Part shown: piece after piece, positions 1,425 through 31,755 of the stretch
Numbering within the stretch: position 1 is the stretch's first letter
Layout: each line of letters begins with the position of its first letter
NCBI GenBank assembly: GCA_017852335.1
Contig: JAFMLG010000008.1
Location: 1-42,486 of the forward strand
DNA from: Actinomycetota bacterium
Lineage (GTDB): Bacteria > Actinomycetota > Nitriliruptoria > Nitriliruptorales > Nitriliruptoraceae
Direction: 5' to 3'
Length of the DNA stretch: 42,486 nt
Translations under genes and position numbers: made by a program
The notes under the pieces: model-generated
The model's input: only the letters and a program-made list of their open reading frames with translations
Database searches by the model: none
What the model was told of the DNA's origin: nothing

Positions 1425-1940
1425 GTGGTCGAGTGGCTGACCGGCCTCCCCGAGGTCCTGCCGGACGTCGGCCGCGCGCTGTACAACTTCGGCGACCCGC
1501 AGAACCTCGGCCGCGGCTGGGTCGGCGCCGCGATCATGCTGCTCTGGTTCGGCCCGCTGACCGCCCTGCCGCTGTTCATCGCGAAGCGGACCCACGGGAA
1601 GCGGGAGTGGGTCTCGTCCACGATGGGCGTGATGGCCGGGACGTCGTTCCTGTGGTGGGTCCACGGCGTGTTCCCCCACGCCTGGATCCAGTTCACCGAG
1701 TCGAACGCCAACCTCCTCGAGGGCACGGTCATCCCCGCGTCGGCCGGGTTCACGATCGGGGAGACCCGCATCGACATCGCGACCAACCTCTACGGCGTCA
1801 TCACCGAGGGCGTCGTCGGCGGGCTGATGGTCGCCGGCATCGCGCTGACCATCGTCGTGTTCCTCCGCGCGCAGCGGATGCTGCCCGCGAAGACCCTCGC
1901 GTCCGGCGAGACCAAGCCCGAGTCGGGCGGGTACAAGTAA
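1425..1940 (+). CDS. unknown three-TM protein, first gene of the bc-complex operon
   Basis: A 171-residue protein I do not recognise. The GTG start follows a good GGAGGG site. Three hydrophobic segments are visible, at about residues 33-53, 66-85 and 126-147. Between TM2 and TM3 lies an approximately 40-residue polar stretch (FTESNANLLEG onward), probably outside the membrane. TM2 is aromatic and contains two histidines (WWVHGVFPH, His80 and His85), which could sit near a quinone or heme, but there is no CxxCH or iron-sulfur motif. The stop overlaps the ATG of the ferredoxin gene (TAATG), so the two are translationally coupled. Position at the head of the operon suggests an accessory or anchoring subunit of the bc complex; that function is inferred from context only. 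Confidence 0.8.
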   Translation: MVEWLTGLPEVLPDVGRALYNFGDPQNLGRGWVGAAIMLLWFGPLTALPLFIAKRTHGKREWVSSTMGVMAGTSFLWWVHGVFPHAWIQFTESNANLLEGTVIPASAGFTIGETRIDIATNLYGVITEGVVGGLMVAGIALTIVVFLRAQRMLPAKTLASGETKPESGGYK

Positions 1941-2284
1941 TGGGCAAGACGGACCGCGGCGAGCACCCCCTGATGTTCGACGACTACGTCGTCCAGGAGG
2001 TCGACGCGCACTGGTTGCAGGAGCGCGTCAAGCCGAAGCGGCACATCGGCCTGACGCCGGAGCTCTGCATCCTCTGCCGGGCCTGCGAGGACGTCTGCCC
2101 CTGGGAGTGCATCTACATGATGTCGCCGGACATCATCAAGGGTGCGGACTCCCCGAACCTGCTCAGCCTGAAGGAGCAGTCGCACGCCGTGTTCATCATC
2201 GACGACAACGAGTGCACCCGCTGCGCGATCTGCGTCGAGCGGTGCCCGACCGATGCCCTCTGGCTCGGCCGGGTCGACGGCTGA
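1940..2284 (+). CDS. 8-Cys ferredoxin (2x[4Fe-4S]) in the bc-complex operon
   Basis: A 114-residue soluble protein with two complete [4Fe-4S] motifs, CxxCxxCxxxCP at Cys43/46/49/53 and at Cys92/95/98/102. They are separated by about 39 residues rather than the short linker of clostridial ferredoxins, so the fold is closer to NuoI-type or long-linker ferredoxins. An extra cysteine (Cys57, PWEC) follows cluster 1. The N-terminal 40 residues are charged, without a signal peptide or membrane segment, so the protein is cytoplasmic and could dock on a membrane partner. The ATG overlaps the stop of the upstream membrane protein, and the cytochrome b gene begins 10 bp downstream. A ferredoxin in this place suggests electron exchange with the bc complex (inference). 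It could instead serve another reductase. Confidence 0.9.
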
Positions 2285-2294
2285 GGAGGACCCC

Positions 2295-3077
2295 GTGGCG
2301 AAGCTGAGCCTGCCGAAGCCGCCGAGCGGCGACGAGCTGAAGGCCTCCGTCCAGGACAACGTCATCTGGCGGTCGATCTTCCGGCCCGGCTCGATCTACC
2401 GGAAGGGGTACCGGGACACGTCGCGGGACCGCGCGCTCGCCTCGATGAACAACGTCCTCTACCACCTGCACCCGGTGAAGGTGAAGCGGCACGGGCTGAA
2501 GCTGACCTACACCTACTGCCTCGGCGGGATGAGCTTCTTCCTGTTCGTGCTGCTGACGATCACCGGCATCTTCCTGATGTTCTTCTACACGCCGGCCGCC
2601 GGCGCCGGGACCGAGCTCGCGTACCTCAACATGCGCGAGCTGTCCGCCTCGGTCACGTTCGGGAACCTGGTGCGGAACATGCACCGCTGGGGCGCGCACC
2701 TGATGGTGTTCACCGTGTTCCTGCACATGGCCCGCGTCTTCTACCACGGCGCGTACAAGGCCCCCCGCGAGTTCAACTGGGTCGTCGGCGTCATCCTGCT
2801 GCTGCTGACCCTGCTGCTGTCCTTCACCGGGTACCTGCTGCCGTGGGACCAGCTGGCGCTCTGGGCCGTCACCGTCGGCACGAACATGATGGGCTACACG
2901 CCGGTCTTCGGCGACCAGGTCCAGTTCGTGCTGCTCGGCGGGCTCGAGATCGGCCCGGCGACCCTGCTGCGGTGGTACGTCCTGCACGTGCTGTTCATCC
3001 CGTTCGTCACCGTCGTCTTCCTCGCGGTCCACTTCTGGCGGATCCGCAAGGACGGCGGCATCTCGGGCCCGCTGTGA
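2295..3077 (+). CDS. cytochrome b6-type subunit of menaquinol:cytochrome c oxidoreductase
   Basis: A 260-residue cytochrome b N-terminal half, carrying both b hemes of the quinol-oxidising core. The GTG at 2295 is chosen because GAGGAGGA lies directly before it and the upstream frame only reads through the ferredoxin gene. Heme ligands are His130/His144 (spacing x13) and His231/His246 (spacing x14); the x14 spacing is typical of b6 rather than mitochondrial b. Other b6 landmarks are [16 protein letters not shown] at about 178-186 and the C-terminus [11 protein letters not shown]. Cys75 in TYCLGG aligns with the b6 cysteine (Cys35 in chloroplasts) that covalently holds heme c(n). The first 50 residues are a charged extension beyond chloroplast b6. 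About four TM helices are expected. The C-terminal half is the separate downstream gene. Confidence 0.95.
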
Positions 3078-3114: not shown

Positions 3115-3972
3115 ATGAGCGAAGAGGTCCAGATCGATCAGGAGGTCTACGACCGTCTGATCGCCGAGGGCAAGAGCGAGCGCATCGCCCGCGCCAAGGC
3201 CAAGGCCGCCGGCGTGCGGAAGGCCAAGGAGGCCTCCGGCGAGAAGCTCGGCCCCCGCAGCGCCGAGGAGCTGGCCGCGAAGGCCGCCCCCGCCGCGGCC
3301 GCCGCCGGTGGTGACACCGGCGAGGGCGGTGGCGTCGCGACGATGGCCCCCCCGGCCGCGAAGGCGGGGAACGGGAACGGCGGCGGTCGGCTCAGCCCCG
3401 AGGAGCGCGCGGCCCGCGTCGCGGCCTCGCTCGGGAAGGGCGGCGAGGCCGCCTCGATCGGCGTCCCGGCCGCGTCCGCGCACACGCACCGCATGCTCGC
3501 GCTCGTGCCGCCGGCCGGCATCCAGCAGGTCAAGACCGAGCAGGAGGACAAGGTCTACACCTGGCCGCACCTGCTCCTCGTCGAGTTCGTCGCGCTGCTC
3601 GCGATGGGCTCGTTCGTGCTGCTGGTCTCGTTCTTCCTCGACGCGCCGCTCGGGTCGCTCGCGAACGCCAACGAGGTCCCGGCCATCAACAAGGCGCCGT
3701 GGTACTTCATGGGCCTCCAGGAGCTGCTGCGGTACTTCCACCCGATGGTCGCGGGCGTCACGCTGCCGGGCGTCGCGATCGTGCTGCTGATGGCCGCGCC
3801 GTACGTCGACAAGAACCCGTCGGCCCAGCCCGAGAACCGCAAGACCGCGAACCTCGCGTTCACGTTCTTCATGGTGTTCTGGGGCGTGCTCGTCATCATC
3901 GGCTCGTTCATCCGGGGCGCCGGGTACGAGTGGGTCTGGCCGTGGGTCAACGGCCTGGGGTTCGTCCTGTGA
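3115..3972 (+). CDS. cytochrome b C-terminal half (subunit IV type) with long N-terminal extension
   Basis: A 285-residue protein whose last 140 residues are the cytochrome b C-terminal domain. It has three hydrophobic segments at about 152-176, 211-229 and 247-266, and the Qo-site loop reads NKAPWYFMGLQELLRYF. The usual PEWY becomes APWY (194-197), a variant known in b6c-type complexes. Residues 1-125 are not part of the canonical fold. They contain a charged helical stretch (VYDRLIAEGKSERIARAKAK, 11-30), then Ala/Gly/Pro-rich, probably disordered sequence. The ATG follows CAGGAGCC and no better start exists inside the extension. Together with the previous gene this makes the split cytochrome b typical of b6f/b6c complexes. 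What the extension binds is unknown; it should face the cytoplasm. Confidence 0.92.
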   Translation: MSEEVQIDQEVYDRLIAEGKSERIARAKAKAAGVRKAKEASGEKLGPRSAEELAAKAAPAAAAAGGDTGEGGGVATMAPPAAKAGNGNGGGRLSPEERAARVAASLGKGGEAASIGVPAASAHTHRMLALVPPAGIQQVKTEQEDKVYTWPHLLLVEFVALLAMGSFVLLVSFFLDAPLGSLANANEVPAINKAPWYFMGLQELLRYFHPMVAGVTLPGVAIVLLMAAPYVDKNPSAQPENRKTANLAFTFFMVFWGVLVIIGSFIRGAGYEWVWPWVNGLGFVL

Positions 3973-4592
3973 GCGCCGCCACGCCCCCCACCCCGTCGCG
4001 CCGCGAGCGTCCGGCCCGGAAGCCCGTCGAGCGCCGCGCGTTCCTCCGCGCCTCGCTGATCGGCTCGGTCTCGGCCGGCCTCGGCGGGTTCGCGCTGGGT
4101 GCCCTCGGGTTCCTCTGGCCGCGCCAGGGCGACGGGCTGTTCGGCGAGGTCATCCTCGGCAACGCCCGCGACCTGGCCGAGCGCATCGTCGGCGAGCGCC
4201 GGCCGGTCCTCGTGCCGGAGGCCGCGCTCTCGATCATCTCCTGGGACCCGTCCGACGGCATCGCCGCCGGGGCGTACGGCGGCCAGCACGCCGTCGTGAC
4301 CGACTCGGTCGGCCTGATGTGCCTCGACACCGGCGCCTGCCCGCACCTCGGCTGCGCCGTCCCGTGGTGCCAGACCTCGCAGTGGTTCGAGTGCCCCTGC
4401 CACGGCTCCCGCTACAACAAGTACGGCGAGTGGACCGGCGGGCCGGCCCCGCGCGGCCTCGACCGGTACGTCTCGTTCATCGACGGCGAGGGGAACCTCG
4501 TGGTCGACCTCGGCTCCCCGGTGACGGGTCCCGCCCGCACCGCCAACGCGCTGGAGCAGGCCCGCGAGGGCCCCTCCTGCGTCGACGCGTGA
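3969..4592 (+). CDS. Rieske [2Fe-2S] protein of the bc complex
   Basis: A 207-residue Rieske iron-sulfur subunit that takes one electron from menaquinol at the Qo site and passes it to cytochrome c. The cluster motifs are CPHLGC (Cys124, His126) and CPCHGSRY (Cys142, His145), with Cys129 and Cys144 as the expected disulfide pair. A twin-arginine signal (Arg22-Arg23 in ERRAFLRAS) precedes a hydrophobic anchor at about 29-49, as in other Rieske proteins that are exported folded by Tat and remain anchored. The GTG start overlaps the previous stop (GTGA). Length is typical of b6f and bacterial Rieske proteins, and the residues needed for cluster binding are all present. Confidence 0.96.
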   Translation: MSAATPPTPSRRERPARKPVERRAFLRASLIGSVSAGLGGFALGALGFLWPRQGDGLFGEVILGNARDLAERIVGERRPVLVPEAALSIISWDPSDGIAAGAYGGQHAVVTDSVGLMCLDTGACPHLGCAVPWCQTSQWFECPCHGSRYNKYGEWTGGPAPRGLDRYVSFIDGEGNLVVDLGSPVTGPARTANALEQAREGPSCVDA

Positions 4593-4602
4593 GGTCCCGC
4601 GC

Positions 4603-5625
4603 ATGACGACGCTGCTGGCCGCGCCCCTCCGCCTCGCCGTCGAGGAGGCCCCCGAGCTGGTCGGGGGCTCCAGCCTGCCGATGCTGCTGCTGGTCCTCGG
4701 CCTCGGCGGGTTCGCCCTGGCCTACGTCCTTGTCGGCCCCGGGTCGCGCAAGGGCCCGAAGCGACACGGCGACATCCCGCTCGCGATGCGGCCCTACCAC
4801 TCGGACGCCGAGCTGGAGGGCCCGGGGCTCGAGCGGGCCATGAGCTGGGGCGTCGCGTTCGCCGTGTTCGCCGCGCTGTTCCTGCCGCTGTACTGGCTGA
4901 TCGAGCCGGGCCGCATCAACGACCGCGTCGAGGACTTCTACGAGGCCGACGTCGCGACGGGCCGGGCGCAGTACCAGAACGCCTGCGCGTCCTGCCACGG
5001 GGTGAACCTCGAGGGCGGCAGCGCCCCGCACCCCGATCCGGACGTCACCGCCGCATGGCCGGTGCCGGCGCTGAACAACATCGTCGCCCGGTATCAGGAC
5101 TCGGCGGTCGTCGACGACGTCCGCGAGCACATCCTGCTGACGCTGCGGTACGGCCGGACCGGCTCCCCGATGCAGGCGTTCAGCGTCGGGAACGGCGGGG
5201 CGCTCAGCGACTTCCAGCTCGAGGCGATCGCGGCGTACATCCTCTCGGTCCAGACCGGTGAGCTGCCGCAGGCGACGTCGTACGTCGGCCGGTCCAGCGA
5301 GGACGTCTTCGCCGCGAACTGCGCCCGGTGCCACGGCGAGAACGCCGAGGGGTACGTCGGGCCGCAGCTCCAGAACGTGTTCGAGCGGTACGGCTGGACC
5401 GGCGAGGACGACGCGTCGCTCGAGGAGGCCCGCGCCGCGGTCCGCCAGGCGATCGTGAACGGCCGCATCGTCCCGGGCCAGGCGCCGATGCCGTCGTTCA
5501 CCGGCGTGCTGACCGACGAGGCGATCGACGCGGTGGTGGACCACCTGCTCTCGATCCAGCGCACGGGCGGTCCCGCCTACGGCCAGATCGGCGGCGACCC
5601 GGTCGCCGCGCCCGCGGAGGAGTGA
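4603..5625 (+). CDS. membrane-bound diheme cytochrome c of the bc complex
   Basis: A 340-residue protein with two c-type heme sites, CASCH (Cys128, Cys131, His132) and CARCH (Cys240, Cys243, His244). Candidate axial methionines are Met190 (SPMQAF) and Met296 (APMPSF), so it has two mono-heme cytochrome c domains in tandem. Two hydrophobic segments at about 25-44 and 83-101 precede the heme domains, placing both hemes outside the membrane. It stands where cytochrome c1 or f would be and should accept electrons from the Rieske protein and hand them to an oxidase. Diheme c subunits replace c1 in actinobacterial bc complexes (QcrC), though this one has a different membrane topology. The ATG lies 10 nt after the Rieske stop, with GAGGTC just upstream. 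Confidence 0.93.
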   Translation: MTTLLAAPLRLAVEEAPELVGGSSLPMLLLVLGLGGFALAYVLVGPGSRKGPKRHGDIPLAMRPYHSDAELEGPGLERAMSWGVAFAVFAALFLPLYWLIEPGRINDRVEDFYEADVATGRAQYQNACASCHGVNLEGGSAPHPDPDVTAAWPVPALNNIVARYQDSAVVDDVREHILLTLRYGRTGSPMQAFSVGNGGALSDFQLEAIAAYILSVQTGELPQATSYVGRSSEDVFAANCARCHGENAEGYVGPQLQNVFERYGWTGEDDASLEEARAAVRQAIVNGRIVPGQAPMPSFTGVLTDEAIDAVVDHLLSIQRTGGPAYGQIGGDPVAAPAEE

Positions 5626-5627
5626 GC

Positions 5628-6542
5628 ATGTCCGGCACCCTGGTCCTCGCGGTCGAGAGCGTCATCCCGGCCGACCACCCGGTCTCGATCCTGGCCGTGC
5701 CGCTCGGTCTGCTGTTCCTCTCCGGCTCGGTCTACGTGCTGCTCTGGTCGAACTACGGCGCCCGGAAGGCCGCCGGCATCTACAGCACCGCGTTCTTCGG
5801 GTTCAACCTGCTCCTCGGCGTGTTCTGGTGGTTCGGCGGCCCCGGCATCGTCCCGGGCCTCGGCATCTCGAACCTGCCGGGCCAGGCCGCCGACCACTAC
5901 AACCCCGAGTGGTTCGGGTTCGAGCCCGGCAGCGAGCGCGCGCAGTTCTTCCGCGGCACGAACCTCGTCGACGAGTTCCGGCCCGTCGAGGTCCGTCTCG
6001 ACGTCGCCGAGCTGACGCCGCAGGAACGGAACCAGGACCCGGCCTTCGCCGCGCTGAACGGCTCGGCTCGGGCCGCCGGTCAGGTCATGGTCGACCAGTT
6101 CCTCCCCGTGGACCAGTTCGGCGTCGCCCGCATCGGCGTGACCCGCCGCACCGCCTTCGAGGAGGTCGTCGCGGCCGAGGCGCCCGCCGGTGCGTCGCGC
6201 GGCACGCCGTTCTACACGGCCCGCCTCGACGGCCCGGTCCGGCTGCTCGACGACCCGGGGACGGGCCTGCTCCTCGCCACGGCCCGCCTGCAGGTCGTCG
6301 CGAACTTCGTCGACGCCGAGGGTGCACCGCTGGCCCAGGTCCCCGTCGAGGCCCCGGTCGACTGGTTCGCGTTCTACGACCCGGGGGCGAACTGGTTCCC
6401 GTCGGCGCTCTGGACCATCGTGTCGCTGGTGCTGTTCCTCCTCAGCCTCGCCTGGCTCGACCGGATGGAGCAGCAGGAGAAGCGGCGGCAGGTCGTCGAG
6501 GTCGAGGAGCCGCAGGACCTGGCCGTCCCGATCGCGCAGTGA
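5628..6542 (+). CDS. unknown membrane-anchored protein, last gene of the bc-complex operon
   Basis: A 304-residue protein I do not recognise. The ATG lies 2 nt after the cytochrome c stop, with GGAGGAG overlapping the end of that gene. Two hydrophobic segments near the N-terminus (about 20-41 and 50-69) are followed by about 190 polar residues (70-258), a third hydrophobic segment (about 259-277) and a charged C-terminal tail (EQQEKRRQ onward). The topology suggests a large domain outside the membrane between TM2 and TM3. No heme, iron-sulfur or copper motif (CxxCH, CxxxCxxxH) is visible, and the only histidines are near residues 17 and 90. Tight linkage suggests a structural subunit of the bc complex or a link to the terminal oxidase; this is contextual only. 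Confidence 0.8.
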   Translation: MSGTLVLAVESVIPADHPVSILAVPLGLLFLSGSVYVLLWSNYGARKAAGIYSTAFFGFNLLLGVFWWFGGPGIVPGLGISNLPGQAADHYNPEWFGFEPGSERAQFFRGTNLVDEFRPVEVRLDVAELTPQERNQDPAFAALNGSARAAGQVMVDQFLPVDQFGVARIGVTRRTAFEEVVAAEAPAGASRGTPFYTARLDGPVRLLDDPGTGLLLATARLQVVANFVDAEGAPLAQVPVEAPVDWFAFYDPGANWFPSALWTIVSLVLFLLSLAWLDRMEQQEKRRQVVEVEEPQDLAVPIAQ

Positions 6543-6567
6543 GCGGCGCGCCCGAGCGGCGCGCGGC

Positions 6568-7167
6568 ATGAGGCGCGGTCGGCGGGCCGCCGGGGCGGCC
6601 GCCGTGGCCGTGGCGCTCGCTCTCGCCGGCTGCGCGGCGGAACCGGACTGCCCGCGCATCGCCGGCGTGCGGACCGGGGTCTGCCCGCTGCCGGTCGAGG
6701 ACCGCCAGCCTGCGCCGGACCTGACGCTGCCGGTGCTCGCCGTCGACGGCGTCGACGCCCCGGCCGAACTCTCCCTCGCCGACCTCCGCGGACGGGTCGT
6801 CGTCGTGAACTTCTGGGCATCCTGGTGCGGACCGTGCCGGATCGAGCAGCCCGACCTGAACGCCGCCGCGGCCCTCCTGCCGCCGGACGAGGTCGTGCTG
6901 GCCGGGGTGAACATCGAGGACACCGAGGCGAACGCCCGCGCGCACCTGCGGGAGTACGGCGTTCCCTACCCGTCGCTGTTGGACCCGGTGAACGACCTGG
7001 CCGGCCGGTTCGACGGCATCGGAGCCCGGACGATCCCTACAACGCTGTTCCTCGACCGCGAGGGCCGGGTCGCGGCGCGGGTGCTGGGACTCACGACGCT
7101 GGGGGAGGTCGTGGGGCTCGCGGATGCGATCGCGGCCGAGGACTCGGCGGCGGGGTCCGACGGCTGA
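6568..7167 (+). CDS. ResA/TlpA-like thiol-disulfide lipoprotein
   Basis: A 199-residue extracytoplasmic thioredoxin-fold protein. A basic N-terminus and hydrophobic stretch end in a lipobox, LALAGC, with lipidation at Cys22. The active site is WASWCGPC (Cys87, Cys90) and the cis-proline loop is TIPTT (Pro157). These mark the ResA/CcmG/TlpA group, which keeps apocytochrome CxxCH cysteines reduced for heme attachment. Two further cysteines (Cys28, Cys39) lie in the linker after the lipobox. The ATG at 6568 is chosen because the signal sequence starts there; its ribosome site is weak. The stop overlaps the ccdA-like ATG (TGATG). Location between the cytochrome genes and ccdA supports a role in cytochrome c maturation. 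Confidence 0.92.
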   Translation: MRRGRRAAGAAAVAVALALAGCAAEPDCPRIAGVRTGVCPLPVEDRQPAPDLTLPVLAVDGVDAPAELSLADLRGRVVVVNFWASWCGPCRIEQPDLNAAAALLPPDEVVLAGVNIEDTEANARAHLREYGVPYPSLLDPVNDLAGRFDGIGARTIPTTLFLDREGRVAARVLGLTTLGEVVGLADAIAAEDSAAGSDG

Positions 7168-7934
7168 TGGCTGAGACGATCCGGACGATCGTCCTCGACG
7201 CGAACGTGCTCGCGGCCACCGCGGTCGCGTTGGCGGCCGGCCTCGTCTCGTTCGCCTCGCCCTGCGTGCTGCCGCTCGTCCCCGGCTACCTGTCCTACGT
7301 CACGGGGCTGACCGGACAGGTCCTCGGCGGTCCCGAGGACGGTCGGGTCGCCGTCCGGGTCCGGGCCCGGCTGCTCACCGGCTCGGTGCTGTTCGTGCTG
7401 GGGTTCGCGGTGCCGTTCGCGCTGCTCGGCTGGGCCGCGGGGCTCCTGAACGTGCTCGAGCGTTCGGCCGCGGCGCAGGCCGTGATGGGTCTGGTGGTCG
7501 CGGCGCTCGGCGTCCTGCTGGCCCGCGGGCGGTTGGTGCGGGAGGTCCGGCTGGCCGGACGGGCGCCGCGGGGCGGGCTGCTCGGGGCGCCGGTCCTCGG
7601 CTTCGTGTTCGGCGTCGGGTGGACGCCCTGCCTCGGCCCGACCGCCGGGGCGATCCTGACGCTCTCCGCCGGGGTCTCCGGCGGCGTGTCCGGCCGTGGG
7701 GCGTTCCTCGGGCTCGTGTACGCGCTGGGGCTCGGCCTGCCCTTCATAGGACTGGCGGTCGGCGTCGGCCGCGCCCAGCGCGTCCTGGGGCTCCTTCGGC
7801 GGCACGCACGGCGGCTCCAGGTCGGCGGGGGCGCGCTGCTCGTCCTTGTCGGGCTCGCGATCGCGACGGGGCTCTGGGCGCGGTGGATGGTCGCGCTGCG
7901 GCCGCTCATCTCCGGGGTCGAGCTGCCGATCTGA
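7167..7934 (+). CDS. ccdA: CcdA-type thiol-disulfide electron carrier
   Basis: A 255-residue multi-spanning membrane protein with about six hydrophobic segments. It carries the two cysteines that define the CcdA/DsbD transmembrane family, Cys33 in FASPCVLPLVPGY and Cys155 in GWTPCLGPT. It moves reducing power from cytoplasmic thioredoxin across the membrane to ResA-like proteins. The ATG overlaps the stop of the thioredoxin-like lipoprotein by one base (TGATG), so donor and acceptor are translationally coupled. Length is close to CcdA (about 235 residues) and much shorter than DsbD. It belongs to the System II cytochrome c maturation set with the ResB and CcsA genes downstream, from which it is separated by an epimerase gene. 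Confidence 0.95.
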   Translation: MAETIRTIVLDANVLAATAVALAAGLVSFASPCVLPLVPGYLSYVTGLTGQVLGGPEDGRVAVRVRARLLTGSVLFVLGFAVPFALLGWAAGLLNVLERSAAAQAVMGLVVAALGVLLARGRLVREVRLAGRAPRGGLLGAPVLGFVFGVGWTPCLGPTAGAILTLSAGVSGGVSGRGAFLGLVYALGLGLPFIGLAVGVGRAQRVLGLLRRHARRLQVGGGALLVLVGLAIATGLWARWMVALRPLISGVELPI

Positions 7935-7942
7935 CGATCGCG

Positions 7943-7956
7943 GCCGCCGCGGCGGC
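7943..7956. repeat. 14-bp perfect GC palindrome
   Basis: GCCGCCGCGGCGGC is its own reverse complement. It sits 9 bp after the ccdA stop and just upstream of a putative -10 element (7962-7967). It could be an operator or part of a terminator without a T-tract. In such GC-rich DNA a chance palindrome is also plausible. Confidence 0.3.
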
Positions 7957-7961
7957 GTGGC

Positions 7962-7967
7962 TAGCCT
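7962..7967 (+). promoter_or_regulatory. putative -10 element before the epimerase gene
   Basis: TAGCCT matches the TAnnnT hexamers seen elsewhere in the window. It predicts a start near 7974 and a leader of about 31 nt that contains the GGAGG ribosome site at 7995-7999. No -35 element is evident. Confidence 0.4.
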
Positions 7968-8004
7968 CGGTCCGGCGGGGTCGCGGTCCCGGGCGGAGGC
8001 GAGC

Positions 8005-9012
8005 GTGCGGGTCCTGATCACCGGTGTGGCCGGGTTCATCGGCATGCACGTCGCGGAGCGCCTGCTGGCCCGGGGCGACGAGGTCGTCGGGTTCGACAGC
8101 CTCAACGCGTACTACGACCCGACGCTGAAGGAGGCCCGGCTCGCGCGGCTCGCGCCGCACGACGGCTTCACGTTCGTCCGCGGGCACCTCGAGGACCGGG
8201 CCGCCGTCGAGGAGGTGTTCGCCGAGCACCGTCCGGACCGCGTCGTCAACCTCGCCGCGCAGGCCGGGGTCCGGTACTCGATCGAGGATCCGCGGGCCTA
8301 CGTCGACGCCAACCTCGTCGGGTTCGCGAACGTCCTCGAGGGCTGCCGCGACCTCGGGGTCGAGCACCTCGTCTACGCCTCGTCCTCCTCCGTCTACGGC
8401 GCGAACACGAAGCTGCCGTTCGCCGTATCCGCCGCCGTCGACCACCCGGTCTCGCTGTACGCGGCGACGAAGAAGGCCAACGAGCTGATGGCGCACACCT
8501 ACAGCCATCTGTTCCGCATCCCGACGACCGGTCTGCGCTTCTTCACCGTGTACGGCCCGTGGGGCCGGCCCGATATGGCGCTGTTCCTGTTCACCCGCGC
8601 CATCCTCGCAGGCGAACCGATCCGCATCTTCAACCACGGCCGCATGCGACGGGACTTCACCTTCATCGACGACATCGCCGAGGGTGTGGTCCGGGTGCTC
8701 GACCGCCCGGCCGCGCCGGACCCGGCGTTCGACGCCGACGCCCCCGACCCGGCGACGTCGAGCGCGCCGTACCGGCTGTACAACATCGGGAACGACCGGC
8801 CGACCGAGCTCGAGCGGTACGTCGAGGTCCTCGAGGCCGAACTCGGCGTCCCGGCGATCCGTCAGTACAAGGACATCCAGCCCGGCGACGTCCCCGCGAC
8901 CTGGGCCGACGTCGACGCCCTCCGCCGCGACGTCGGGTTCGTCCCGGCGACGCCCGTCGAGGAGGGCGTGCGCCGGTTCGTCGCCTGGTACCGGGAGTTC
9001 CACGGGGTCTGA
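8005..9012 (+). CDS. UDP-glucuronate 4-epimerase-type SDR protein
   Basis: A 335-residue extended short-chain dehydrogenase. The NAD-binding GxxGxxG is at 7-13 (GVAGFIG), the catalytic YxxxK is Tyr152/Lys156 (LYAATKKANE), and the serine patch ASSSSVYG lies at 126-132. GFDSLNAYYDPTLKEARL near residue 29 and YGPWGRPDMALFLFT are typical of UDP-glucuronate 4-epimerases (CapI/LpsL group), which make UDP-galacturonate for surface polysaccharides. The GTG start has a strong GGAGG 5 nt upstream. The gene interrupts the cytochrome c maturation genes, lies in the same direction, and seems to have its own promoter. Base composition is the same as its neighbours, so there is no sign of recent transfer. 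Substrate is inferred from family resemblance; UDP-glucose 4-epimerase is less likely. Confidence 0.88.
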   Translation: MRVLITGVAGFIGMHVAERLLARGDEVVGFDSLNAYYDPTLKEARLARLAPHDGFTFVRGHLEDRAAVEEVFAEHRPDRVVNLAAQAGVRYSIEDPRAYVDANLVGFANVLEGCRDLGVEHLVYASSSSVYGANTKLPFAVSAAVDHPVSLYAATKKANELMAHTYSHLFRIPTTGLRFFTVYGPWGRPDMALFLFTRAILAGEPIRIFNHGRMRRDFTFIDDIAEGVVRVLDRPAAPDPAFDADAPDPATSSAPYRLYNIGNDRPTELERYVEVLEAELGVPAIRQYKDIQPGDVPATWADVDALRRDVGFVPATPVEEGVRRFVAWYREFHGV

Positions 9013-9070
9013 CGCGCTGTCCGAGCATGCCCTCGAACCGCTCGCCGGAGGCCCGTCCCCGGCCCGTCGG

Positions 9071-9076
9071 TACCCT
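9071..9076 (+). promoter_or_regulatory. -10 element of resB-ccsA, predicted leaderless
   Basis: TACCCT ends exactly 6 nt (CCCCCC) before the GTG of the ResB gene at 9083. Transcription normally starts about 7 nt after the hexamer, so the mRNA would begin at the start codon itself. No Shine-Dalgarno sequence is present, which agrees with leaderless translation. Confidence 0.55.
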
Positions 9077-9082
9077 CCCCCC

Positions 9083-10702
9083 GTGAGCCGTCCCGACTCC
9101 GCCGCCCCGCCCGTGATGGACCCGCCGGTGCGGCGGGCCGCGCCACCCCCGGGCCCACGCCCGCCCCACCGCGTCGTCCTCGACGCGGTCGCGATGGCCT
9201 GGCGGACGCTCACCCGCATGCGCACCGCCCTCTGGCTGCTGTTCGGCCTGGCGCTGCAGTCGGCCGTCGCGACCGTCGTCCCCCAGGCGCCGAACGTGCC
9301 CGGCACGGTCCGGGCCTGGCTGGCCGGGGAGGAGGGGCCGGGCGCCGGCGTGTCGGGGGTGCTCGACGCCCTCGGCGCGTTCGACGTCTACGGCTCGACG
9401 ATCTTCCTGGCGTTCCTGCTGCTGCTGTTCCTCAGCCTGACGGCCTGCCTCGTTCCGCGGATCCGCGGCTGGTGGCGGCTGGTCCGACGCTCGCAGCCGC
9501 CGCTGCTGCGGGCCGCCGCCCCCGACGACGTCCGGGCGGGCGTCCTCGTCGGCGGCGACCGCGACGCGGCGCTGGCCGCCGCCCGCGAGGTGCTGTCGGA
9601 CCGGATCCTCGGCGTGGCGCGGTGGCGGGTCCGGACCGCGCCCGACCAGGTGGCGGCCGAGACGGGGCTGTGGTCGCGGGAGGGCGGCAGCCTCGCGTTC
9701 CACCTCTCGTTCTACGCGCTGCTCGCCGCGATCGTGCTGGGGCAGCTGACGTCGTTCGAGGGTCAGCGGGGCGTCGTCGAGGGCGAACCCGGCTTCGTCG
9801 ACGCCGCGGTCTCGTACTGGACCTACGACCCCGGCCGGTGGTTCCCCGAGGACGCGCACGCCGGGTGGCGGCTGGACCTCGCGTCGTTCGAGGTCGACTG
9901 GATCCGCGATCCGCTCGCCCCGGGCGCCGGCCAGCCGACCGTGTTCCGCTCGGAGGTCGACGTCACGCGGCCCGATGGGACCGTCGAGCGGGCCGTCGTC
10001 GAGGGGAACCGGCCGCTCGTCGTCGACGGCCGCAAGATCCACCAGCTCGACTGGGGGTACGCGCCGCGGGTCGTCGTGCGCCAGGGTGGCGAGGTCGTCC
10101 ACGACGGCTGGGTCCCGACGCTGGCCGGCACCGGCGTGTTCTCTGGTGCGGTGAAGGCCCCGGCCGCCGAGCCCGACGTCGGCCTCGAGCTGTACCTCTA
10201 CCCCTACGCCCCCGACGGGCCCGACGGGCCGCGGCTGACCGGTGCGCCCTGGGCCGAGGCACCGGTGCTGCTGGCCTGGCAGTGGCGGGGCGACCTGCAG
10301 CTCGGGGCGACCCAGCAGACGATCACCGAGCTCGACGTGTCGCGGCTGGACCTCGAGGGCGCGGCCTGGTTGCGACCCGGCGACGTGACCGCGTTCGGCG
10401 ACGTCGAGGTGGAGTTCGTCGAGCTGCGCCGCTGGGTCGGGTTCCAGGTCTCGCGCCGGCCGCAGGTGCCGGGGCTGCTCGCGGCCTCGGCGCTGCTGAC
10501 GCTGGGGCTGGTCACGGCGCTGTACGCGTACCGCCGCCGGATCTGGGTGCTGGCTGAGCCGGCGCCCGGAGGGCCTGACGGGACGCCCCGTACCCTCCTG
10601 ACCGTCGTCGGACGCGCGTTCCAGCGGCCCGACGCCGCCGCCGAGGAGCACGCCCGGCTCGTCGACGAGCTCGCCCGACGCACCGGAGGGACGCGGACGT
10701 GA
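9083..10702 (+). CDS. resB: ResB cytochrome c biogenesis protein (System II)
   Basis: A 539-residue protein of the ResB/Ccs1 family, which with CcsA forms the heme-delivering cytochrome c synthase. Hydrophobic segments lie at about 48-66, 104-123 and 206-224, with a fourth near the C-terminus (LLAASALLTLGLVTALYAY). A large polar domain of about 240 residues lies between TM3 and TM4, as in the family. TM3 contains FHLSF with His207, at the place of the conserved heme-handling histidine. A proline-rich N-terminus (about 30 residues) precedes the first TM. The GTG at 9083 is supported by the leaderless -10 spacing rather than by a ribosome site. The stop overlaps the CcsA GTG by 4 nt. Confidence 0.93.
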   Translation: MSRPDSAAPPVMDPPVRRAAPPPGPRPPHRVVLDAVAMAWRTLTRMRTALWLLFGLALQSAVATVVPQAPNVPGTVRAWLAGEEGPGAGVSGVLDALGAFDVYGSTIFLAFLLLLFLSLTACLVPRIRGWWRLVRRSQPPLLRAAAPDDVRAGVLVGGDRDAALAAAREVLSDRILGVARWRVRTAPDQVAAETGLWSREGGSLAFHLSFYALLAAIVLGQLTSFEGQRGVVEGEPGFVDAAVSYWTYDPGRWFPEDAHAGWRLDLASFEVDWIRDPLAPGAGQPTVFRSEVDVTRPDGTVERAVVEGNRPLVVDGRKIHQLDWGYAPRVVVRQGGEVVHDGWVPTLAGTGVFSGAVKAPAAEPDVGLELYLYPYAPDGPDGPRLTGAPWAEAPVLLAWQWRGDLQLGATQQTITELDVSRLDLEGAAWLRPGDVTAFGDVEVEFVELRRWVGFQVSRRPQVPGLLAASALLTLGLVTALYAYRRRIWVLAEPAPGGPDGTPRTLLTVVGRAFQRPDAAAEEHARLVDELARRTGGTRT

Positions 10703-26734: not shown

Positions 26735-29196
26735 GCGCCCCCGCCGCACCCGGCGCCGCGAGCGCCGAGGACCTCGTCACGCTGACCATCGACGGCGAGC
26801 AGGTCAGCGTCCCGAAGGGCACGCTGATCATCCGCGCCGCCGAGATGGTCGGCACCATCGTCCCGCGGTTCTGCGACCACCCGCTACTCGACCCGGTCGG
26901 GGCCTGCCGGCAGTGCGTCGTCGAGGTCGAGGGCCAGCCGAAGCCGGTCATGTCCTGCACCGTCCCGGTCGCCGAGGACATGGTCGTCCGCACGCACCTC
27001 ACGTCCGCGATGGCGCGGCGCGGCCAGGAGGGGACGCTCGAACTGCTCCTCGTGAACCACCCCCTCGACTGCCCGATGTGCGACAAGGGCGGGGAGTGCC
27101 CGCTCCAGGACCAGGCCCTCGCACACGGCGCGAACCAGTCGCGGTTCCTCGACCAGAAGCGGAAGTACGAGAAGCCGGTCGCCGTCAGCCCCCAGGTGCT
27201 GCTCGACCGGGAGCGGTGCGTCCTCTGCGCCCGGTGCACCCGGTTCTCCGAGCAGATCTCCGGCGACCCGTTCATCGAGCTGTTCGAGCGCGGCGCCCTC
27301 GAGCAGGTCGCGATCTACGAGGACGAGCCGTACCACTCGTACTTCTCGGGGAACACCATCCAGATCTGCCCCGTCGGCGCGCTCACCTCCACGTCCTACC
27401 GGTTCAAGGCCCGGTCCTTCGACGTCGTCACGACGCCCAGCGTCTGCGACGGCTGCTCGGCCGGGTGCGGCCAGACCGTCCAGTCGCGACGCGGCGAGGT
27501 CCAGCGCCAGCTGGCGCGGACGAACATGGACGTGAACGAGGCCTGGAACTGCGACAAGGGGCGGTTCTCGTTCCCGCATCTCACCCACGCGCAGCGACTC
27601 ACCACGCCGATGGAGCGGGTCGACGGCGAGCTCGTCCCGACCACCTGGTCGCGGGCCCTCGCCCGCGTCGCGGACGCGGTCCGCGCTTCGCAGGACGTCG
27701 GGCCGGGACGCACGGCGCTGGTCTCCGGCGGTCGGCTCGCCGACGAGGACGCTCACGTCGCGGCCCGGCTGGCCCGCACCGTCCTCGGCACCGACCTCGT
27801 CGAGCACCGGACCCGGTTCGCGCCGGCCGACGAGGCGCCGGCCCGTGCGGTGCTGCTGGCCCGCGCCGGCGGCGCACCCGGCCTGACCTACGCCGACGTC
27901 GAGCACGCGCCCGTCATCGTCGTCGCCGGCCTCGACCCCGAGGAGGAGGTCCCGGTCCTGCACCTGCGCCTCCGCAAGGCGTGGCGGCAGCACCGGGCCC
28001 GCATCGTCGTCGTCGGTCCCCACCTCGGGACGCTCGACGGCATCGCCTGGCGCCGCGTCGCCACCGCCCCCGGCGCCGAGCCCGCCGCGCTGGCCGCGCT
28101 GGCCTACGGCGACGGCGAGATCGCCGCGGCCCTGCGGGGCGACGGCGCCCCGGCCGTCCTGGTCGGCGAGCGCGCGGGCGCCGGGTCGCTCGCCGCCGGC
28201 ACCCGCCTCGCCGAGGCCGTCGGCGGTGGCGTCGCGTTCGTCCCGCGCCGGGCCGGTGACGCGGGTGGTCTCGCCGCCGGGCTCGCCCCCGGGCTGCTGC
28301 CGGGCGGACGACTGCTCGCGGACGCCGCGGACCGCGCCGAGGTCGAGGCCGCGTGGGGGCCGCTGCCGGCCCACCTCGACGGCGCGGCGCCGGTCGACGG
28401 GCTGCGGGGGATCCTCGCCGCCGCCGCGGACGGCGCGGTCGACGTGCTCCTCCTCGCCGGGGCGGACCTCGCCCGCGACGCGCAGTCGGCGGCCCTCGCG
28501 GAGCGCGCCCTGGCCCGTGTCGCCGGCGCCGGCACCGTCGTCGTCCAGGACCTCGCGCTGACCGAGACGGCCGCGCGGTACGCCGACGTCGTGCTGCCCG
28601 TGACCGCGACCCAGGAGCGGGACGGCGCCCGGACCGACTGGGAGGGCCGGGCGCAGCGGTTCCGCCGGGCCGTCGACGCCCCCGAGCTGGCCCAGGACGA
28701 CTGGGAGGCGTTCGTGCAGCTGGCGGCGGTGCTGGGGCACCGCCTGTACGGCTCGCTCGACGCGATCCGCGCGGAGCAGGAGCAGCTCGGCGTCCGCGCC
28801 GCGGCCCACCCGCTCCCCGAGGCCGCGTCGGCCGGATCCACCGGCGCGCCGTCGGGCGACGCCCTCCTGGCCGTGGTGCGGCCGCTCCTCCTCGACGGCG
28901 GGACGATGCTGGCCGGTGCCGACGACCTGCGAGCGACGGCGCGCGCCGCGACCGTCGGCGTCAGCCGGGCCGACGCCGCCCGCCTCGGGATCGTCGACGG
29001 TGCGGACGTCACCGTGACCGGCGCCGGCGGCGCGACGGTGACGCTGCCGACCGCGGTCCTGCCGGACCTGGTCCCCGGTGCGGTCGTGCTGCCCCGCACC
29101 TCGACCGAGCCGCCGGTCACCCGCCTCGCCGACGAGGACGGCGTCGTGGCCGTGACCCTCGCGCCCGTCGCCGTCCCGGCGGAGGTCGGCGCATGA
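26731..29196 (+). CDS. nuoG: NADH-quinone oxidoreductase subunit G
   Basis: An 821-residue 75-kDa-type subunit with an N-terminal ferredoxin-like domain and a molybdopterin-oxidoreductase-like body. All expected clusters can be placed. N1b is at Cys48/59/62/76, N5 at His110/Cys114/Cys117/Cys123, and N4 at Cys163/166/169/213. An additional N7 site lies at Cys239/242/246/274 (Cx2Cx3Cx27C), as in E. coli and Thermus. The long C-terminal part (about 330-821) is Ala-rich and has lost catalytic molybdopterin features, as usual for NuoG. The GTG start overlaps the nuoF stop and the end overlaps nuoH (ATGA). Its length is close to that of mycobacterial NuoG. Confidence 0.97.
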
Positions 29197-30413
29197 GCCG
29201 TCCTCTCTGGGTCGCTGGCCTGACCGCGGGTCTGACCTTCCTCTACTTCCTGCTGACGACGGCGATCCTCATCTGGGGCGAGCGCCGCGTCGTCGCCCGC
29301 ATGCAGTCCCGCCTCGGACCGAACCGGGTCGGGCCGCTCGGGGCGCTGCAGACGCTCGTCGACGGCCTCAAGATGTTCTTCAAGGAGGACGTCACCCCGG
29401 CGATGGTGAAGCAGCCGATCTTCACCGTCGCGCCGCTCGTCGGCGTCGTCGCCGGCCTGCTCTCGACCGCGGTCATCCCGATCGGAGGCGAGGTCACGCT
29501 CGGCGGGGAGACGTTCACCCTGCAGGTCGCCGATCTCGGCGTCGGCGTGCTGTGGTTCCTCGCGATGGGGTCGATCCACGTCTACTCGGTGTTCCTCGCC
29601 GGGTGGGCGTCGAGCTCCCCGTACCCGCTGCTCGGCGGGGTCCGGTCCAGCGCCCAGATGATCTCGTACGAGATCGCGCAGGGACTCGCCGTCGCCAGCG
29701 TCTTCATCTACGCCGGGTCGCTGCGCGTCTCGGACATCGTCGCCGCGCAGTCGGGCGAGGGGCTGCTGCCGGGCCTGCCCGGCTGGTTCGCGATCCCCCT
29801 GCTGCCGGCGTTCGCCGTCTTCGTCGTCGGCATGGTCGCCGAGGCCGGCAGGCCGCCGTTCGACCTCGCCGAGGCCGAGGGCGAGCTCGTCGGGGGGTTC
29901 CACACCGAGTACTCGGGGCTGCGGTTCGGGATGTTCATGCTGGCCGAGTTCATGGCCGTCGTCATCCAGAGCGCGATGGTCGTGACGCTGTTCCTCGGCG
30001 GCCCCTCCGGTCCGACGTTCGGCCTGCCGGCCCCGATCGCGGCGGTGATGCCGACCGTCTGGTTCACCCTGAAGACGCTGCTCTTCATCTTCCTGTTCAT
30101 CCTGCTCCGCGGCGCCCTGCCCCGGACCCGGTACGACCGGCTCATGGCCCTCGGCTGGAAGCTGCTGATCCCCGTCGGCCTGGTCTGGGCGCTCGCGACC
30201 GCCGCGCTGGTCCTCGTCCGCGAGGACGGCGGGCTCTCGACCACCGCCCGCCTCGGCCTCGCCGCCGGCGCGGTCGTGGTCGCCGTCCTCGGGCTGGCCA
30301 CCGGCCGCGGCGGCCGCGACGCGGCGACCATCGGCCGGGCCGTCAGCACCGCGGTCCGGCCCACGGCGCCGGCCGCGACCGACGAGCCCGACCCCGCGGA
30401 GGTGGCCCGATGA
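29193..30413 (+). CDS. nuoH: NADH-quinone oxidoreductase subunit H (copy 1)
   Basis: A 406-residue eight-helix membrane subunit that forms the quinone entry chamber. Landmarks are the N-terminal [20 protein letters not shown] (near 28-47), [26 protein letters not shown] and the charged quinone loop [20 protein letters not shown] with the acidic residues of the E-channel. After the last helix of the core ([19 protein letters not shown]) there is a further hydrophobic segment and a 45-residue Ala/Pro-rich cytoplasmic tail. Such tails also occur in actinobacterial NuoH. ATG and stop overlap the neighbouring genes by 4 nt. Confidence 0.97.
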
Positions 30414-31150
30414 CCCTTCAGGCATGGCTGACCGCCGCCGGGGGCGCCGTCGCCCTCGTGCTGCTCGGGTGGCTCGCGCTGACGCGGACCGTGCTCGGCC
30501 GCGGCCTCGCCGTGCCGCTGCGCGCGATGTTCGTGAAGCCCGAGACGGCGTCGTACCCCGAGGCGCCGCGTCCGACCGCGCCGCGGTTCCACGGTCGCCA
30601 CCAGCTCAACCGGTACGCGGACGGGCTCGAGAAGTGCATCGGGTGCGAGCTCTGCGCCTGGGCCTGCCCGGCCGACGCGATCTTCGTCCAGGGCGGGGAC
30701 AACACCGAGGAGCAGCGGTTCTCGCCCGGCGAGCGGTACGCCGAGGACTACCAGATCAACTACAACCGGTGCATCCTCTGCGGGCTCTGCATCGAGGCCT
30801 GCCCGACGCGCGCGCTGACGATGACGCAGGAGTACGAGATCGCGGCCGACTCGCGCGAGGGGCTGATCTGGACCAAGGACATGCTGCTCGTCGACCCGCC
30901 CGAGGATGGGTACGACACGCCGCACACCGACCGCGAGGTCCGCGACCGGGGGCTGAACTACTACGGCGGCCTCGCCGTCACGCCGCCGACCCGGAAGGGC
31001 GGGTCGTTCGCGCCGGCGACCGCCGCCCCGCTCCAGCGGGCGGGGGCCGTCGTCCCGCGCCGCGAGCTGCCGCTGGTCCCGCCCGGGACCGGCGACGCCG
31101 AGGGCGAGCCGGACGGGGACGGCGGGTCCGCAGGCGCGGGCGACGCCTGA
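30410..31150 (+). CDS. nuoI: NADH-quinone oxidoreductase subunit I
   Basis: A 246-residue TYKY-type subunit with two [4Fe-4S] clusters (N6a, N6b). Ligands are Cys76/79/82/86 ([12 protein letters not shown]) and Cys121/124/127/131 ([12 protein letters not shown]). The flanking sequence [15 protein letters not shown] and [14 protein letters not shown] is very close to the actinobacterial NuoI I know from mycobacteria, which supports the taxonomic guess. Unusually the N-terminus (about 8-27) is a long hydrophobic stretch that looks like a real membrane anchor. The C-terminal 60 residues are Pro/Gly/Asp-rich and not part of the fold. The ATG overlaps the nuoH stop and the stop overlaps nuoJ (TGATG). 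Confidence 0.96.
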
Positions 31151-31755
31151 TGGGCGAGACGATCGCGTTCCTGGTCTTCGCCGGCATCGCGCTCGGCGCG
31201 GCGGTGGCCGTCGTGGCCATGCGCAACCTCGTCCACGCCGCGCTGATGCTCGTCATCCACCTGCTCGCGGTGGCGGGCCTGTACCTCGGGCTCGAGTCGC
31301 AGTTCCTCGCCGTCATCCAGGTCCTCGTCTACGCCGGCGCCATCGTCGTGCTGTTCCTGTTCGTGATCATGCTGCTCGGCGTCGACCGGGACGATCTGCT
31401 CGTCGCACAGGGCCGCCGTGCGGTGGCGGGGGCGGTCGCCGTCGGGCTGGTCCTCGCCGGGGCGCTGACGTTCGCGTTCGTCGGGCCGTACACCGGCGAG
31501 GCGTCGGTCTGCGGGTCCGACGTCGCCCCGACCGGCACCGAGCAGTCCTGCGCCGGCATCGCCCCCGTGCTCGACGCGGACGACGACGCCGGGGTCGCGT
31601 TCCTCGGTCGCCGCCTGTTCACGCGGTACACGCTCGCGTTCGAGCTCTCGGCCGTCCTGCTCACCGTCGCGACGATCGGCGCCGTCGTGCTGGCGCGACG
31701 GAGGGACCTCTCGCCCGAGGACGAGGACCTGCCGACGGGAGAGGTGACGGCGTGA
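31150..31755 (+). CDS. nuoJ: NADH-quinone oxidoreductase subunit J
   Basis: A 201-residue ND6-type membrane subunit with about five hydrophobic segments. The conserved third helix region reads [23 protein letters not shown] (near 56-78), which contains the pi-bulge helix important for coupling. A polar loop of about 45 residues ([15 protein letters not shown] onward), holding two cysteines, separates TM4 from TM5 and faces outside. The C-terminus is acidic. It overlaps nuoI and nuoK by 1 to 4 nt. Confidence 0.95.

Follow-up and report, generated by a model that had tools for sequence, protein, structure and literature searches.

Why does a ferredoxin gene sit inside an operon for a b6-type cytochrome complex? 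In photosynthesis it is still debated whether ferredoxin can feed electrons into b6f at heme c(n), because the partner binds weakly there. The locus analyzed here lies at positions 1 to 42,486 of contig JAFMLG010000008.1 (this whole stretch of 42,486 nucleotides is referred to as the window), from an Actinomycetota bacterium of the Nitriliruptoraceae with an assembly of 1.7 Mb in 82 contigs that is 97% complete. An earlier note on this DNA had described an eight-cysteine ferredoxin with a long linker, coupled to a membrane protein gene and placed 10 bp before a b6-type gene, and had suggested from gene order that it reduces menaquinone at the Qi side.

The operon comprises seven genes, all on the forward (+) strand. 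The first (TM3; 1425..1940) encodes a 3-TM protein without a Pfam or NCBIfam family, for which the AF2 model consists of three long helices and a search of the PDB gave no fold match at E≤0.001. Its TAA stop (1938-1940) overlaps the ATG (1940-1942) of the ferredoxin gene (FD; 1940..2284), which ends 10 bp before the GTG start, at 2295, of the cytochrome b6-type subunit (2295..3077; PF00033, 7.9e-45), with AGGAGG just upstream of that start. Next come subunit IV (3115..3972; PF00032), which has a long n-side N-terminus, a Rieske [2Fe-2S] subunit (3969..4592), a membrane-bound diheme cytochrome c with two CxxCH motifs (4603..5625) and P7 (5628..6542), a 3-TM protein with a large loop and no family that is the last conserved gene of the operon. 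The b6, subunit IV and Rieske proteins are encoded by three separate genes, all above the gathering score. Cytochrome f (PetA) is absent from the operon and is replaced by the membrane diheme cytochrome c, which makes the complex a relative of b6 type and no b6f complex in the strict sense.

FD is a protein of 114 residues with the motifs C43xxC46xxC49xxxC53-P and C92xxC95xxC98xxxC102-P, separated by a linker of ~38 residues. It matches Pfam Fer4 and the dicluster family Fer4_7, both above the gathering score, and its AF2 model has a mean pLDDT of 86. The two CxxCxxCxxxCP motifs and the dicluster fold identify it as a 2[4Fe-4S] ferredoxin, here with an N-terminal extension. The earlier description is correct on all points. 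Inspection revealed no signal peptide. A ninth cysteine, Cys57 in CPWxC, is conserved in 90+% of the ferredoxins of this complex (type 1) and has an equivalent in most of the inspected domains of the sister complex (type 2) described below. NuoI of complex I and the ferredoxin domains of the FwdF/MvhB polyferredoxins have the same 2[4Fe-4S] dicluster fold, likewise with an insert between the clusters. FD scores 43 bits against the NCBIfam NuoI subfamily, below the cut-off of 113, and in comparison with the window's own NuoI (34% identical) it has CPWxC57. That NuoI belongs to a group of complex I genes (NuoH, NuoI, NuoJ-like) recognized by eye at about 28353-31755 of the window.

With the fold of an ordinary dicluster ferredoxin, FD could be an ordinary soluble protein that works with other enzymes and only shares a transcript with the complex. 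Gene neighborhoods across the phylum speak against this reading. The order TM3-FD-b6-IV-Rieske-cytochrome c-P7 is kept, contig ends aside, in 40/40 loci drawn by similarity to FD from many families of Actinomycetota, a constancy far above chance. To avoid selection for FD, we picked 80 further loci from a public genome collection by b6 alone; these are the best 80 b6 matches (69-92% identical) and therefore fairly close relatives. FD lies upstream of b6 in all 78 of these loci that hold enough DNA, and the other genes are equally constant (TM3 76/76, subunit IV 76/76, Rieske 66/66, cytochrome c 65/65, P7 62/62). A hand count over 296 genomes, sampled evenly from the phylum, finds FD in 91 of the 96 genomes with a near-full-length type 1 b6 (67% or more identical). 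By the earlier note, absence of the ferredoxin from beside the complex in relatives would have refuted its proposal; the adjacency of ferredoxin and b6 holds. The nearest named b6 relatives belong to the Nitriliruptoraceae, followed by Acidimicrobiia and other Actinomycetota, and nearly all are MAGs; viral contigs yielded no relatives to TM-protein, b6 and flavoprotein queries.

A second b6 cluster, identified in eleven loci of the phylum (L158-L168), provides another connection between this cytochrome and ferredoxin. These type 2 clusters encode, in order, a small 2-TM protein, a protein of ~610 residues, b6, subunit IV, Rieske and a c-type cytochrome; two loci carry b6 and subunit IV as a fusion, and L161 ends within the Rieske gene. 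The ~610-residue protein, encoded directly before b6, joins a GltD/NfnB-like NAD(P)H flavoprotein (Fer4_20 + Pyr_redox_2) to a C-terminal FD-type domain, which in most cases includes the extra cysteine. The b6 proteins of types 1 and 2 form a single clade (100/100) relative to other b6 and are both extended at the N-terminus, on the n side, by a stretch containing HxHPVKV or HxYPVKV. The window's version of this motif, YHLHPVKV (2460..2483), is exclusive to the ferredoxin-associated b6 clade, and its H57 is conserved in both types. The window's own genome contains no GltD-like protein at E≤1e-10, and plasmids queried with the type 2 flavoprotein returned distant GltD-like proteins only, about 30-36% identical among the matches listed.

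The redox core of the clade has distinctive features of its own. The window b6 has the heme c(n) cysteine that the earlier note had pointed out: C75 (codon 2517..2519), the predicted attachment residue in TYTYCLGG, aligns with the spinach b6 heme c(n) cysteine in an alignment with spinach and Bacillus reference rows. This cysteine is present in type 1 and absent from 11/11 type 2 proteins, so heme c(n) is no shared requirement. At the Qo site, the window's subunit IV has APWY in place of the PEWY of b6f, and the same is true of all 142 readable clade members (127 with FD, 4 without FD and 11 of type 2), while PEWY is retained in four actinobacterial b6 complexes outside the clade. The canonical acidic quinol-oxidation residue is therefore missing throughout the clade, with or without FD. 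None of the papers listed by a search of open-access literature uses 'APWY'. Two further actinobacterial b6 clusters (L170, L171) lack a ferredoxin and encode multiheme cytochromes with 6-11 CxxCH.

We next consider the genomes in which FD is missing. TM3 is directly followed by b6 in four class-mates of the window's organism (L154-L157) and in G058 (L173), a genome from a different family. The remaining operon genes stay in the four class-mates, and G058 shows only TM3 and b6. A relocated copy of FD was sought in the four class-mates; matches there were weak (best E=4e-8) and none reached the level of FD. A tree built from b6, the subunit IV core, Rieske and cytochrome c, in which some deeper nodes are weak, splits the four: L155 and L156 together are sister to a genome with FD (100/100), and L154 and L157 fall elsewhere. 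These two groups and G058 thus imply at least three independent losses, and repeated loss means that FD is not needed for the core complex. The losses also bear on TM3, a candidate membrane anchor for FD: this role is weakened, since TM3 stays where FD is lost and so is not simply its anchor.

Loss of FD is accompanied by change in a defined part of the complex. For each subunit we took the alignment columns that are ≥90% conserved in FD-containing complexes and scored those changed in all four FD-less members. No such column was found in b6 (0/157), cytochrome c (0/17), P7 (0/5) or TM3 (0/5), which leaves b6 without a conserved residue that changes with FD loss. Subunit IV has 2/70 and Rieske 1/49, so subunit IV is not the sole subunit with a change. 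In subunit IV, four residues separate the two changed columns, which both fall within HTHRLLxxVPPxGIQ, an n-side segment of the N-terminus a short way ahead of the first TM helix; in the window this segment reads HTHRMLALVPPAGIQ (3481..3525). The segment is kept in all 135 readable ferredoxin-bearing complexes. Its core RLLxx[VI] occurs in 124/124 FD-containing complexes (three with I) and 11/11 of type 2 (one with I), is found in 0/4 FD-less complexes, and is absent from spinach PetD. Within family f5, the FD-containing genomes with a readable segment all keep RLLxx[VI]. The co-decay rests on two loss lineages, the third loss (G058) lying at a contig end where subunit IV is unreadable. The pattern is suggestive of a putative docking element that was freed from constraint once FD was lost.

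Taken together, the synteny, the type 2 fusion and the loss of the subunit IV motif along with FD argue that FD is a real n-side subunit. That the operon stays intact after FD loss would suit a merely co-transcribed ferredoxin. The near-perfect linkage to one b6 clade across the phylum, the fused FD-type domain beside the sister b6 and the decay of the subunit IV segment where FD is lost nonetheless make that reading very improbable. We consider it rather probable that FD is a peripheral n-side subunit of a distinct actinobacterial b6-type menaquinol:cytochrome c complex, with net electron flow likely inward. FD would dock near heme c(n), on the surface formed by b6 and subunit IV, where it would contact the RLLxxV of the subunit IV N-terminus. 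It would pass electrons singly between the heme chain of low potential and soluble donors that are also of low potential. An independent parallel comes from Synechocystis, where PetP, on the n side, touches Leu18 and His24 of subunit IV at the site predicted for Fd(-FNR) near heme c(n) (PMC9342900). The HxHPVKV motif of b6 is kept in the four FD-less complexes, which counts against the docking model.

The PetP precedent on the same n-side face also raises the prospect that FD serves in assembly, redox sensing or gating with no net electron transfer, Cys57 being a possible sensor. In favor of such a role, three or more lineages do without FD, and Cys57 is conserved in most type 1 proteins as well as in type 2. 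The eight cluster ligands, however, are invariant in 44 FD sequences, and the type 2 FD-type domain has an NAD(P)H flavoprotein on one side and b6 on the other, an arrangement that resembles an electron wire. We therefore regard a purely non-electron-transferring role as quite unlikely.

If FD is an electron-carrying subunit, as we favor, electrons may flow in either direction. Menaquinol lies near -70 mV and ferredoxin near -400 mV. Inward flow, from ferredoxin to menaquinone, is preferred because it is downhill: electrons would move from reduced ferredoxin (or an upstream dehydrogenase) through the FD clusters to hemes c(n)/b(n) and on to menaquinone at Qi, and in type 2 the donor would be the NAD(P)H flavoprotein fused to the FD-type domain. 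One candidate donor, 2-oxoacid:ferredoxin oxidoreductase (PF01855), is missing in two genomes with FD (G205, G226) and present in all four FD-less genomes; its presence is thus uncorrelated with FD, and it is no obligatory partner.

In the opposite direction, menaquinol would be bifurcated, with one electron going to Rieske and cytochrome c and the other passing via hemes b to FD and into the cytosol. On general grounds, the step from menaquinol to ferredoxin is steeper than that to NAD(P)H and opposes the membrane potential, and the complex I genes in the window mean that other low-potential electron routes exist. The closest analogues, Kustd1480-1485 and Kuste4569-4574 of Kuenenia stuttgartiensis, are proposed to run outward to NAD(P)H (PMC12954380). 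The window Rieske retains, in CPCHGSRY, the Ser and Tyr of CPCHGSxY, which are linked to a high Rieske potential (PMC12954380), and its best PDB match is 9rk4; 9rk4 and 9rk3 are probably Kuenenia Rieske structures, judged by their deposited names. In weighing these points, we consider outward flow unlikely, if clearly less so than a role without electron transfer. The link between ferredoxin and complex drawn by the earlier note is thus strengthened by synteny, fusion and co-decay, which add a place for FD as an n-side subunit; the proposed reduction of menaquinone at Qi fits these data, and the reverse could also operate. We judge the odds to be even that the complex truly works as a ferredoxin:menaquinone oxidoreductase, or as the bifurcating reverse of one, and that its sister form is wired directly to NAD(P)H.

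A comparison with known systems places the two Kuenenia complexes nearest (PMC12954380). They have in common with the window's complex a b6-like cytochrome b, a subunit IV-like protein, Rieske and a c-type cytochrome. Kuenenia has an n-side FeS-containing NAD(P) oxidoreductase, a layout that matches type 2, whereas type 1 keeps the ferredoxin module only. The FAD/NAD(P) domain with FeS that Kuenenia encodes with b6 is thus present in type 2 and lacking in type 1, where FD stands alone, with neither a flavin nor an NAD(P) domain; the resemblance of the FeS parts is one of layout. The cytochrome c is diheme in the window and hexa- or octaheme in Kuenenia, and subunit IV has about three TM helices in contrast to five. 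In Kuenenia, an N-terminal His of b6 ligates an extra interface heme b (His43-Arg247 and His62-Arg266; PMC12954380). For the candidate pair H57-R251 in the window b6 the spacing is 194, as against 204 in Kuenenia.

Chloroplast and cyanobacterial b6f share with the window's complex the split b6/subunit IV and the heme c(n) cysteine, and for b6f ferredoxin entry via heme c(n) has been proposed and an n-side partner contacts the subunit IV N-terminus (PMC9342900, PMC13287000). Binding of Fd/FNR to b6f is transient and debated, whereas the actinobacterial ferredoxin is operon-encoded and phylum-wide. Among NCBIfam models, Geobacter ExtP (NF040969) matches the window b6 at 297 bits (cut-off 290), and ExtQ (NF040970) scores 38 against its subunit IV (cut-off 150). 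The settings also differ, ExtP/ExtQ belonging to a selenite/tellurite operon and the window genes to a respiratory operon with Rieske and cytochrome c.

In the open-access literature we found no description of an actinobacterial ferredoxin-bearing b6 complex, though older papers may mention one. Many Actinomycetota, Nitriliruptoria and Acidimicrobiia among them, appear to have the ferredoxin as a dedicated subunit, and the complex may be stable enough to purify. If our reading is correct, it would provide a respiratory counterpart of the debated ferredoxin-to-quinone route through b6f and an extra point of electron entry or exit in the respiratory chains of bacteria that abound in soil and water. 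Natural controls, namely the FD-less clades, the predicted docking motif and the fused NAD(P)H form, make the question testable.

Two further observations lie outside the operon. Immediately downstream, at about 6542-10702 of the window, translations read by eye suggest thioredoxin-like, CcdA-like membrane and ResB-like ORFs of cytochrome c maturation. Elsewhere in the window's genome, an open frame of 546 residues encodes a second protein with a Rieske domain (G000:C69:20716-20964, L001).
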